Below, piece by piece: positions 47,561 to 53,031 of a stretch of 64,000 bases of DNA. The position numbers were made by a program, and so were the translations under genes. The DNA comes from Mesorhizobium loti. Its GTDB lineage: Bacteria; Pseudomonadota; Alphaproteobacteria; Rhizobiales; Rhizobiaceae. The stretch spans positions 5,875,020 to 5,939,019 of the forward strand of contig AP017605.1 in assembly GCA_002356515.1 (NCBI GenBank). The letters run 5' to 3'. Position 1 is the stretch's first letter, and the number at the start of each line of letters is the position of its first letter. The notes under the pieces are model-generated. The model was not told the DNA's origin and ran no database searches. It worked only from the letters and a program-made list of their open reading frames with translations.

Positions 47561-47592
47561 AAGCGCGCTCCAAAACACAGCCATAACTTTTT

Positions 47593-47615
47593 GTATGGGT
47601 ATGCCCCCCTAATAC
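47593..47615. promoter_or_regulatory. GTAT...ATAC palindrome in the dmd/LysR divergent promoter
   Basis: GTAT (47593-47596) and ATAC (47612-47615) form an interrupted palindrome in the 114-base gap between the LysR gene and dmdA. LysR-type regulators bind interrupted palindromes, so this is a candidate operator; short arms make it uncertain. Confidence 0.3.
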
Positions 47616-47674
47616 GTCCTTTGACGAAACCGCGCCAGCCTGATCATTGGTTGTCGACCATAGGGGAGGGGCCG

Positions 47675-48778
47675 ATGTTTTCAGTTTTCCCAACGGCGCG
47701 ATTGCGGCCGTCACCGTTTTACGCCTCGGCCGTCGCCGAAGGTATGACCGCGGCAAGCATCTATAACCGGATGATCATGCCCACATCTTATGGTGATCCC
47801 GAGGCGGAATACTGGCGACTGATCAACGGCGTCTCTCAATGGGATGTCGGCGTGGAGCGCCAGGTGCAACTGAAAGGGCCGGATGCGGGCCGCCTGGCGC
47901 AGATCCTGTCACCGCGCGATCTGTCCAACTGCAAAGTCGGTCAGGGCAAATATGTGCCGCTATGCAACCATAGAGGCACGATCATCAATGATCCGATTCT
48001 GCTGAAGCTGGCGGATGACCTTTATTGGCTGTCGATTGCCGATAGCGACATCTGGTTTTGGGCCAGCGCCATTGCTGCCGAACGTGGCCTGACCGTCGAG
48101 GTCAGCGAGCCTGACGTCTCCCCCATGGCGCTGCAAGGGCCGAAAGCCGAGGATGTCGTGGCCCATGTATTGGGGGATTGGGTTCGACAGCTGAAGTATT
48201 TCTGGTTCAAGGAAACCGAAATCGAAGGCATCCCGGTGGCCGTTCAGCGCTCTGGGTGGTCCAAGCAAGGCGGGTTCGAAATCTATCTGAAAGACGGGAC
48301 GCGCGGCACTCAGCTTTGGAATATTTTCAAGGAGGCGGGCCAGCCCTGGGGCATTGGCCCAGGCGCTCCTGCCACGGCGGAGCGCACCGAAAGCGGCCTT
48401 GTGTCGGTCGGCGGTGATACCGACGACGCGACCAATCCGTTCGAGGTGCGTCTGGGCAAGTACGTTGATCTTCATGTTGCCGATGACGTCGTGGGCATCC
48501 AGGCGCTACGCCGGATCGAGGCGGAAGGTGTCAAACGCCATCAGCTCGGTCTGGTGCTTGAAGGCCATGCCCCTGCTCCCCTGGGCTTCCGCCGCCAAGA
48601 CATCATCCGCAATGGCCAGCGCATCGGCATGATGACCAATTGCGTCTGGTCACCGCGCCTGAAAGCCAACATCGGCTATGCGCTGATCGACGCAGGCGTG
48701 CCTGCAGGCGAAACAGTGCAGGTGATGCGCGATCCGGGGCCGGTTTCCGCCAAACTCGTAGAGCTGCCTTTTCTGTAA
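47675..48778 (+). CDS. dmdA: Dimethylsulfoniopropionate demethylase-like protein (DmdA)
   Basis: 367 residues from ATG 47675, preceded by GGGGAGGG; a start at 47591 is possible but poorer. GcvT/aminomethyltransferase fold. The N-terminal half follows DmdA rather than GcvT: YNRMIMPTSYGDPEAEYW, GVSQWDVGVERQVQLKGPDA (first part GVSQWDVGVERQV), RDLSNCKVGQGKYVPL, DIWFWASAIA, SEPDVSPMALQGPKAEDV and RSGWSKQGGFEIYL. DmdA moves a methyl group from DMSP to tetrahydrofolate, yielding methylmercaptopropionate. The three following genes match the rest of the pathway (DmdB, C, D), which supports the call. Paralogous demethylases for related methylated compounds remain an alternative. Confidence 0.8.
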   Translation: MFSVFPTARLRPSPFYASAVAEGMTAASIYNRMIMPTSYGDPEAEYWRLINGVSQWDVGVERQVQLKGPDAGRLAQILSPRDLSNCKVGQGKYVPLCNHRGTIINDPILLKLADDLYWLSIADSDIWFWASAIAAERGLTVEVSEPDVSPMALQGPKAEDVVAHVLGDWVRQLKYFWFKETEIEGIPVAVQRSGWSKQGGFEIYLKDGTRGTQLWNIFKEAGQPWGIGPGAPATAERTESGLVSVGGDTDDATNPFEVRLGKYVDLHVADDVVGIQALRRIEAEGVKRHQLGLVLEGHAPAPLGFRRQDIIRNGQRIGMMTNCVWSPRLKANIGYALIDAGVPAGETVQVMRDPGPVSAKLVELPFL

Positions 48779-50433: not shown

Positions 50434-52181
50434 CTTTTGAAGCACCATTAAAGGACTTGATGTTCAATATCGCCCACATCGCGCCATGGTCCGGCGATGC
50501 GATGGGTGATCTCGAGATAGCGTCAGCGATCCTCGAAGAGTTCGGCCGCTTTTGTGCCGAGGAAATCGCACCGCTGAATGCCGCGGGCGACCGCATCGGC
50601 TCGCACTGGGACGGAGGTCACGTCCAAACGCCGCCCGGATTCCGTGAGGCCTATGCCAAGTTCATGGACATGGGCTGGCAGGGGTTGCGTCATCCTTCGG
50701 AATTTGGCGGGCATGATATGCCCCGCGCTGTCGCCGCTGCGGCGACCGAAATCATCAACGCGGCCAATATGAGTTTTGCGCTATGTCCTCTTTTGACCGA
50801 TGGCGCGATCGAGGCGCTTCTGCGTTTCGGGTCGCCTGAAATCCAACAGACCTATCTGCACAATCTGGTTTCCGGCAAATGGACCGGCACGATGAATCTG
50901 ACCGAGCCGCAGGCGGGCAGCGATCTGGCCCTGATACGGACAAGAGCCGAACGCCAGGCGAATGGCACCTATCAGATCTCCGGAACAAAGATCTTCATCA
51001 CCTATGGCGAGCATGATCTGGCCGAGAATATCATTCACCTCGTCCTTGCTCGAACGCCTGGCGCGCCCGACGGCGTCAAGGGCATCAGCCTGTTTCTCGT
51101 GCCGAAACTGCTGGTGGGCGAAAGTGGCGAACCCGGCGCGCAAAATTCGCTCCGCTGCCAAAGCATTGAACACAAGCTCGGCGTCAGAGCGAGCCCGACG
51201 TGCATGCTCGAATTCGAAAGCGCCACGGGCTATCTGATCGGCCGCGAAAACGCCGGGCTGGAATTCATGTTCACGATGATGAACGCGGCCCGCTTCGCCG
51301 TAGGCGTTCAAGGGGTTGCGATAGGCGAACGTGCATATCAAATGGCTCTGTCTTACGCAAAGGCCCGTATACAGGGCCGTCCAGTCGGTGGTAGCTCCCT
51401 TGAGGCAGTTCCCATTATCCTTCACGCCGATGTCCGCCGCATGCTGGCGCACATGCGCGCCACGACCGAAGGGGGCCGTGCCCTTGCCGCCGCTGCCGCG
51501 GGATGGCAGGACCGTGCGCAGTTTGCCGCCACGCCGGAACTGAGAGCGGAGGCCCTGGCGATAGGTGAATTTCTTGTGCCGCTGGTCAAGGGCTTCTGCA
51601 CCGAGATGAGCCTGCAGGTCGCATCAACCGGCGTGCAGATTTATGGTGGCATGGGATTCATCGAAGAAACGGGCGTTGCCCAGTACTACCGCGATGCACG
51701 AATCTTGCCGATCTACGAAGGTACAACGGCCATCCAGGCCAATGATCTGCTGGGCCGCAAGACGCTTCGGGACGGTGGATCAACGGCGAGACGCCTCGCT
51801 GCATTGATAGCTCAAACAGAAAATGCCCTACGGCAAGGCTCGCCCGTGGCGCAGGAGATCGCCGCGCAGTTGTCCGGCGCGCGGGAAGCATTTGAGTCCG
51901 TCGTTGCCCATCTGGTTGCGGTCAAGCCAACGGAGTTGAACGCCGCTTATGCCGGCGCCGTGCCCTATCTGATGCTGGCTGGCAATCTTGTAGCGGGCTG
52001 GCAACTGGCCCGCTCGGTCCTCGTCGCCGAAGCGGAACTGGAGGACGGCCAAGATCCCGATTTCATGACCGCCAAGATCGCCACGGCACGGTTCTACGCC
52101 CGACACATTCTCGGGGAGACCGACCTTCAGCGAGCCCGGGTCATGGACGGCGCCGCAAGCCTGTTGGACATCGAATTCTGA
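50430..52181 (+). CDS. dmdC: Methylmercaptopropionyl-CoA dehydrogenase-like acyl-CoA dehydrogenase (DmdC)
   Basis: 583 residues, the long ACAD form (DmdC is about 590) with an extra C-terminal helical domain (about 460-583). Features: FAD-binding TMNLTEPQAGSDLALIRT near 156, GTKIFITYGEHDLA, MNAARFAVGVQGVAIGERAY, and YRDARILPIYEGTTAIQAND, with the catalytic base Glu430 in IYEGTT. It would oxidise MMPA-CoA to methylthioacryloyl-CoA. It overlaps dmdB by four bases. The substrate is inferred from the operon. Confidence 0.84.
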   Translation: MTFEAPLKDLMFNIAHIAPWSGDAMGDLEIASAILEEFGRFCAEEIAPLNAAGDRIGSHWDGGHVQTPPGFREAYAKFMDMGWQGLRHPSEFGGHDMPRAVAAAATEIINAANMSFALCPLLTDGAIEALLRFGSPEIQQTYLHNLVSGKWTGTMNLTEPQAGSDLALIRTRAERQANGTYQISGTKIFITYGEHDLAENIIHLVLARTPGAPDGVKGISLFLVPKLLVGESGEPGAQNSLRCQSIEHKLGVRASPTCMLEFESATGYLIGRENAGLEFMFTMMNAARFAVGVQGVAIGERAYQMALSYAKARIQGRPVGGSSLEAVPIILHADVRRMLAHMRATTEGGRALAAAAAGWQDRAQFAATPELRAEALAIGEFLVPLVKGFCTEMSLQVASTGVQIYGGMGFIEETGVAQYYRDARILPIYEGTTAIQANDLLGRKTLRDGGSTARRLAALIAQTENALRQGSPVAQEIAAQLSGAREAFESVVAHLVAVKPTELNAAYAGAVPYLMLAGNLVAGWQLARSVLVAEAELEDGQDPDFMTAKIATARFYARHILGETDLQRARVMDGAASLLDIEF

Positions 52182-52224
52182 ATAGAACAATCAACCCTCT
52201 TCAACTCGGGAACAGGACCGTACA

Positions 52225-53031
52225 ATGGCCATCCAAATCGACATCACCCGATACAAGAACCTTGCCGTGGAGGCTCATGACGAGGGGGTTTGGGTCGTAA
52301 CGCTGAACCGCCCCACCAAACGCAATGCGCTGGATGCCGACACGATCGAGGAACTGGTCGACTTTTTTTCCACCGCGCCTCGCGCGGGTGTGCGCGCGAT
52401 TGTGCTGGCCGGGTCGGGGGACCATTTCTGCGCGGGACTCGACTTGATCGAACATCATCAAGCTGACCGCAGCCCGGCGGACTTCATGCATATTTGCCTG
52501 CGCTGGCACGAGGCCTTCAACAAAATGGAATATGGCGGCGTGCCGATCATAGCGGCGCTGCAGGGTGCCGTCGTCGGCGGTGGGCTGGAATTGGCGAGCG
52601 CCGCCCATATCCGGGTGATGGACAAGACAACCTATTTTGCACTGCCTGAAGGCCAGCGCGGGCTTTTCACCGGCGGCGGCGCAACGATCCGCGTCACCGA
52701 TCTGGTGGGCAAGGCGCGCATGATCGACATGATGCTGACGGGCCGGGTGTATCAAGGGCAAGAAGCGGTCGATCTGGGGCTTGCGCAGTACATCGTCGAA
52801 GGCTCAAGTTTCGAGAAGGCCCTGGAACTCGCCCACAAAACAGCGCAGAACCTGCCCCTGTCCAACTTTGCGATCTGCTCCGCTGTGAGCCATATGCAGA
52901 ATATGTCCGCGCTGGATGCCGCTTACGCCGAGGCTGTCGTCGCGGGTGTGGTGAACACCCAGCCGGAAGCACGTGCTCGGCTCGCCGCCTTCGCCGACAA
53001 AAGCGCGGCGCGTGTGCGGGCCAACTATTGA
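52225..53031 (+). CDS. dmdD: Methylthioacryloyl-CoA hydratase-like crotonase (DmdD)
   Basis: 268 residues of the crotonase fold. Oxyanion-hole segments GDHFCAGLDL and GAVVGGGLELASAAHI, with two acidic residues Glu122 (GLELAS) and Glu142 (LPEGQRGLF) placed like the Glu pair used by DmdD and enoyl-CoA hydratases. DmdD hydrates methylthioacryloyl-CoA and hydrolyses it to acetaldehyde, CO2, methanethiol and CoA. It is the last gene of the cassette, 43 bases after dmdC. An ordinary enoyl-CoA hydratase is the alternative. Confidence 0.82.
   Translation: MAIQIDITRYKNLAVEAHDEGVWVVTLNRPTKRNALDADTIEELVDFFSTAPRAGVRAIVLAGSGDHFCAGLDLIEHHQADRSPADFMHICLRWHEAFNKMEYGGVPIIAALQGAVVGGGLELASAAHIRVMDKTTYFALPEGQRGLFTGGGATIRVTDLVGKARMIDMMLTGRVYQGQEAVDLGLAQYIVEGSSFEKALELAHKTAQNLPLSNFAICSAVSHMQNMSALDAAYAEAVVAGVVNTQPEARARLAAFADKSAARVRANY

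Follow-up and report, generated by a model that had tools for sequence, protein, structure and literature searches.

A putative dimethylsulfoniopropionate breakdown operon with a DmdA-related demethylase in Mesorhizobium loti

Genes and predicted enzymes of the locus

The locus described here lies in a 64,000-nucleotide stretch of Mesorhizobium loti DNA (contig AP017605.1, positions 5,875,020 to 5,939,019 of the forward strand; hereafter, the window), a chromosomal piece of a genome of 8.45 Mb in 4 contigs, and comprises four consecutive genes whose predicted products resemble the DmdA-D enzymes of dimethylsulfoniopropionate (DMSP) demethylation. Gene 1 (47675-48778, 367 aa) encodes a putative DmdA-like folate-dependent demethylase from a sister clade of canonical DmdA, gene 2 (48808-50433, 541 aa) an acyl-CoA ligase, gene 3 (50430-52181, 583 aa) a long acyl-CoA dehydrogenase that is a candidate DmdC, and gene 4 (52225-53031, 268 aa) a predicted methylthioacryloyl-CoA (MTA-CoA) hydratase, DmdD. 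The first-pass annotation had described four consecutive, partly overlapping genes with a divergent LysR-family regulator; the coordinates bear out this layout, with all four genes on the + strand, and the overlap holds for genes 2 and 3, which share 4 bases, but not for the other pairs, separated by gaps of 29 bases (genes 1/2) and 43 bases (genes 3/4). All four reading frames are intact in the window, and the Pfam matches were far above chance for gene 1 (GCV_T and GCV_T_C), gene 2 (AMP-binding) and gene 4 (ECH_1). The residue marks proposed at first reading, Glu430 within IYEGTT in gene 3 and the Glu122/Glu142 pair in gene 4, were found in place. Identities of 99% to a Mesorhizobium erdmanii protein and of 97% to M. 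silamurunense and M. huakuii agree with the genus.

The clearest assignment is that of gene 4. Its product is 80% identical over 258 residues (E=3e-138) to 4izb, which we take to be the DmdD of Ruegeria pomeroyi and whose PDB title reads only enoyl-CoA hydratase family protein. This identification fits the existence of a Glu-to-Ala twin structure, 4izc, together with the E121A mutant described in the available part of PMC5395565. A tree built from 38 rows, 37 of them distinct, puts 4izb inside the 28-row clade of the operons' own DmdD genes (support 98/93). Gene 4 is thus an ortholog of the R. pomeroyi enzyme and, as far as sequence can tell, a true DmdD. The gene is rare: at E to 1e-90 it was found in 4 of 385 alphaproteobacterial genomes, and at E to 1e-75 in 10 of 199 genomes of the host's family, presumably the Rhizobiaceae of GTDB, the own genome being counted in both cases. 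In its available part, PMC5395565 describes DmdD as highly efficient on MTA-CoA, narrowly distributed and missing from most marine demethylating bacteria.

Gene 2 belongs to the PRK08162 subfamily, the type that stands beside canonical DmdA in SAR11-like loci. It scored 802.7 bits against NF006020 (PRK08162; cut-off 677) and only 339.7 bits against NF005426, the model for 3-(methylthio)propionyl-CoA ligase of the PRK07008 type (cut-off 822), which a separate ligase of the own genome nearly reaches (812.9 bits). In a ligase tree whose 39 rows include repeats, gene 2 groups with ligases that adjoin canonical DmdA (L095, L189, L190, L192 and L197-L199) in a clade of 30 rows (100/99), and 6ihk, which we take to be DmdB, falls outside it; SAR11_0248 has reportedly been shown to be a methylmercaptopropionate (MMPA)-CoA ligase. 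Some 1.5 kb to either side of canonical DmdA was read in 30 loci, with shorter flanks in L030 and L033; six of these loci carry a ligase of the gene 2 type and none a DmdD at 45% identity or more. By lineage, gene 2 is a ligase of the kind adjoining canonical DmdA, and not of the PRK07008 type.

Gene 3 has the Pfam domains of an acyl-CoA dehydrogenase, including PF12806. It is 41% identical to 6ijc, presumably DmdC (445 bits), and scored 490 bits against 8png, a 'probable acyl-CoA dehydrogenase'. As other long acyl-CoA dehydrogenases score higher, gene 3 is not distinguished from them by sequence and is best described as a generic enzyme of this kind that would be compatible with the role of DmdC.

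The fold of the gene 1 product is evident from its sequence and would not reveal the substrate. The protein is 35% identical to 3tfh (E=1e-73), whereas canonical DmdA proteins from 30 loci are 41-78% identical to it. For known DmdA enzymes, Km values of 5.4 and 13.2 mM are given in the available part of PMC5395565. Six residues (Y95, D108, S122, E204, Y206 and R239, in 3tfh numbering) are kept in 31 of 31 canonical rows and in 20 of 20 close linked rows, and gene 1 itself retains the folate and core residues Y95, D108, S122, E204 and Y206, which do not discriminate DmdA, since the sister proteins have them too.

Linkage of the cassette, regulation and neighboring genes

In order to follow the cassette across relatives of gene 1, its genes were located by tblastn in 80 loci kept of 94, some of which end early at contig ends, with identity thresholds of at least 50% for DmdB, 45% for DmdD and 50% for LysR. 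Where gene 1 is at least 74% identical, DmdB and/or DmdD were found in 26 of 38 loci (22 of 30 once the count is limited to loci that reach 3 kb past gene 1 and 1.2 kb ahead of it), DmdD in 22 (16 at 62% or more and six at about 50%) and the LysR gene in 27. Writing A to D for genes 1 to 4, the orders ABCD, ABD, AD and DA all occur, and this variety speaks against a single block having simply been inherited. In the family sample of 199 genomes without the own one, 16 carry a gene 1 relative (E to 1e-100) and nine a DmdD; three have both, adjacent in two of them (P about 0.03). A gene 1 relative, matched in two pieces, also stands beside DmdD on a contig titled Anaerolineaceae bacterium (Chloroflexota; L173), which is either a transfer or a mislabelled contig.

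The same cassette is also found with canonical DmdA in place of gene 1. G396 and G569, both from a single related genus, carry DmdC-DmdD-DmdB with canonical DmdA in fourth place, and in G405 canonical DmdA adjoins DmdD; in all three genomes it exceeds the DmdA model cut-off, and they served as positive controls. Conversely, no canonical DmdA over the cut-off was found in any of the 22 searched genomes with a sister-type cassette, by their titles mostly metagenome assemblies of unstated completeness, and the gene 1 relatives were below the cut-off in all 22. This set includes six genomes with the 50% DmdD and one with DmdB only (L135); L097 lies outside it.

Within Mesorhizobium, gene 1 (E to 1e-100) is present in 10 of 146 genomes, in two cassette versions. 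The first, ABCD at 91-99% identity, occurs in the window, in M. silamurunense (G629) and in G601, where gene 1 is split over two frames (L219, about 6341-7430) and B, C and D match at full length; the same order at 91-99% was also seen in M. huakuii. In the second (seven genomes) gene 1 is 82-84% identical; six have the order A-B-D-C, with B, C and D at about 47-55% (L107, L111, L113-L115, L218), and G673 (L106) has gene 1 with only a piece of gene 2. In L113 and L218 an OpuA-type importer lies ahead of gene 1, where the divergent LysR gene otherwise stands. Outside the genus, the nearest loci for genes 1 and 2 are from Cypionkella (93% and 82%), so that a transfer, with the cassette exchanged between Mesorhizobium and Rhodobacteraceae, is suggested by these identities.

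The divergent gene (46649-47584, - strand; PF00126 and PF03466) encodes a GcvA-like LysR-family regulator, scoring 277 bits against the GcvA model (cut-off 288). Its relatives align only from residue 8 or 9 onward, which places the true start probably near 47560 and leaves a shared upstream region of about 47561-47674. Upstream of gene 1, a candidate operator or promoter stretch, CATAAC...ATACGTC.TTTG (47582-47623, no strand assigned), recurs in relatives; the pattern matched in 16 of 25 relatives and in 3 of 10000 mononucleotide shuffles. A single base keeps the window from matching, and the pattern counts as weak evidence because it was drawn after the relatives had been seen. The LysR protein would control the four genes as an inducible operon. 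Farther out, a class III aminotransferase gene (43823-45235) and an AraC regulator gene (45416-46315) adjoin the LysR gene; an aminotransferase 36% identical to that of the window adjoins the gene 1 relative in L082/L159, which come from one genome.

Some relatives carry further genes beside the cassette. In Cypionkella (L099) a full OpuAC-type importer precedes the LysR gene, in Mesorhizobium sp. B2-7-1 (L113) one lies directly ahead of gene 1, and in Tabrizicola (L118) an OpuAC-type binding protein, an ATPase and the start of a permease lie behind DmdD. Behind DmdD in L133 (9138-12308) and L080 (5021-8030) there is an SBP56 gene followed by a 222-codon gene, for which no Pfam match was found in L133; the SBP56 gene scored 110.8 against the MtoX model (650). 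According to the part of PMC5739008 available, the SBP56 proteins include the methanethiol oxidase MtoX, and PMC10030565, likewise available in part, describes an ATP-binding cassette (ABC) importer for DMSP and reports that the genes for demethylation do not usually lie together with candidate DMSP importers. These neighbors point to a sulfur zwitterion as substrate in the relatives concerned; in a probe search, both kinds of neighbor were missing from most fetched loci. Peptide-type SBP_bac_5 importers beside several relatives were also considered as a clue and set aside, as they indicate no clear substrate. In L083, L141, L154, L156 and L161 an ABC importer gene of this type lies near gene 1 relatives that lack B and D, a hint that this part of the sister clade may use another substrate.

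The proposed demethylase and its substrate

We consider it probable that the locus is an operon for the breakdown of DMSP to methanethiol in which a paralogous demethylase substitutes for DmdA. The gene 1 product would transfer one methyl group of DMSP to tetrahydrofolate, leaving MMPA; the gene 2 product would convert MMPA to MMPA-CoA; the gene 3 product would oxidize MMPA-CoA to MTA-CoA; and DmdD would hydrate the latter, yielding acetaldehyde, CO2, CoA and methanethiol. That gene 4 is orthologous to DmdD, the descent of gene 2, the placement of gene 1 as sister to canonical DmdA and the recurring linkage come from the sequences themselves; DMSP as substrate, the part played by gene 3 and control by LysR are inferred. 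The DMSP pathway proposed in the first-pass annotation is thereby well supported, by the DmdD ortholog, the ligase type, the kept cassette with its LysR gene and the importer and SBP56 neighbors of some relatives. Gene 1 likely functions like DmdA, the same reaction being the likeliest because the cassette also has canonical DmdA in that slot.

Several observations weigh against this reading, first of all those on gene 1. Its score against the NCBIfam DmdA model (NF009133/PRK12486) is 357.6 bits, below the curated cut-off of 410. In a 75-row tree gene 1 and canonical DmdA fall into two clades that are sisters (support 100/96 and 100/95), and a second tree, of 104 rows chosen by hand, sets gene 1 apart from the 20 canonical rows (100/100), so that the name DmdA, given to it at first reading, does not hold in the strict sense. 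In at least three genomes (G105, G213, G381) canonical DmdA coexists with one of the more distant sister-clade proteins, and the two clades are therefore paralogs. Furthermore, gene 1 is changed at sites where canonical DmdA varies little or not at all (Y29A, H50R, Q56S, N235A, I237A, Y247V, N249G, C260V and G261R). Linkage is incomplete, with no DmdB or DmdD in 12 of the 38 close-relative loci, either of them in only 5 of 39 loci with gene 1 at 60-74% identity, and neither in the three below 60%. The ligase clade includes an own-genome paralog of gene 2 (L178, 45% identity) and thus is not DmdB alone, no gene of the SBP56 (methanethiol oxidase) family was found in the own genome, OpuAC importers carry betaine too, and the supply of DMSP in soil is uncertain.

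These differences between gene 1 and DmdA leave room for an alternative in which gene 1 demethylates another sulfonium compound or methylated acid, for example a plant sulfonium, to MMPA or a close analogue that genes 2-4 would finish. The fixed changes in its sequence would suit such a substrate, as would the hosts of the named loci, which belong mostly to non-marine genera. Most of the changed sites, however, are common to the whole close clade, whether or not linked to B or D, and N235 is retained in four of five DmdD-linked distant relatives; being independent of DmdB/DmdD linkage, the changes are lineage marks that say little for or against any substrate. For the same reason the differences at 235-247 were rejected as a sign of altered function, as close relatives without B and D mostly have them and DmdD-linked distant ones do not. 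Trp197 of 3tfh, which we equated with W171 of PMC7487153 by its spacing to E178/Y180 in the available part of that paper, was rejected as a DMSP marker, since 14 of 31 canonical rows have Tyr there, and a text search of the literature for residues contacting DMSP found nothing. Given also that the same cassette occurs with canonical DmdA in the slot, and that DmdD appears as an MTA-CoA specialist in what was available of PMC5395565, we regard another substrate as unlikely.

It is more improbable still that the locus is a generic beta-oxidation operon joined to an unrelated GcvT-like folate enzyme, with no role in DMSP metabolism. Genes 2 and 3 do come from broad families, gene 1 goes under a GcvT-like name in databases, and the DmdD of the variant Mesorhizobium cassette is only about 50% identical and forms a separate clade. 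Against this reading stand the orthology of gene 4 and the nesting of 4izb among these genes, together with the linkage to canonical DmdA, SBP56 genes and betaine-type importers. That the cassette was imported and is now decayed or unexpressed, serving no function in its host, might be suggested by the sporadic occurrence in the genus, the split gene 1 of G601 and the remnant of gene 2 in L106; it is hardly credible given the four intact frames of the window and the same order, at 91-99% identity, in M. silamurunense and M. huakuii.

Beyond the window, we lean towards a broader view. DMSP demethylases would include another class besides the DmdA clade, and this class would have come to occupy the position of DmdA in a mobile DmdBCD cassette that soil and fresh-water bacteria carry (Mesorhizobium, Cypionkella, Gemmobacter, Tabrizicola and sphingomonads), to the exclusion of canonical DmdA in their genomes. 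DMSP, or a sulfonium resembling it, would then be a substrate on land that goes uncounted in current dmdA surveys.

Significance and comparison with known systems

DMSP demethylation is regarded as a mainly marine trait and is keyed on dmdA. If the preferred reading of the operon is true, the pathway reaches soil, root-nodule genera and fresh water, and DmdD gains a second home; counts based on the canonical DmdA model would miss the sister-clade enzyme because it lies below the cut-off and is named GcvT-like. With two paralogous enzymes occupying one operon position, there would also be a means to work out the determinants of DMSP specificity. Among the literature matches listed, which included a search for dmdA with Mesorhizobium and came from one literature collection, there was no description of this cassette.

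Families close to DmdA have been met before. The available part of PMC3160333 mentions a SAR11 gene close to dmdA whose substrate is not known, and that of PMC7487153 (Hernandez et al., 2020) a family from marine genomes, termed 'non-DmdA', that neighbors DmdA and has in part a DmdA-like predicted structure and a DMSP-linked Trp. Gene 1 resembles the latter in its position next to DmdA; unlike gene 1, that clade comes from marine genomes (MarRef), and the same part of the paper reports no tested function for it.

The SAR11-like clusters L189 and L190 (C-B-gap-A) share with the window the ligase clade (49% and 48% identity) and a DmdC-like gene (37%) beside DmdA, but their DmdA is canonical, and no match to DmdD or LysR was found in the 12 kb read. 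The first-pass annotation had held that the genes of the pathway are usually scattered; these clusters speak against this, whereas the R. pomeroyi locus numbers, in the available part of PMC5395565, agree with it except for the neighboring DmdC1 and DmdD. The closest parallel is the DmdA-D pathway of R. pomeroyi itself, with which the window shares the DmdD ortholog, the order of reactions and the adjacency of DmdC and DmdD (SPO3805/SPO3804, by locus number in that same part of PMC5395565). It differs from R. pomeroyi in having all four genes in one putative operon together with a LysR gene, in a gene 1 drawn from the sister clade, and in a gene 2 that is not of the PRK07008/6ihk type.

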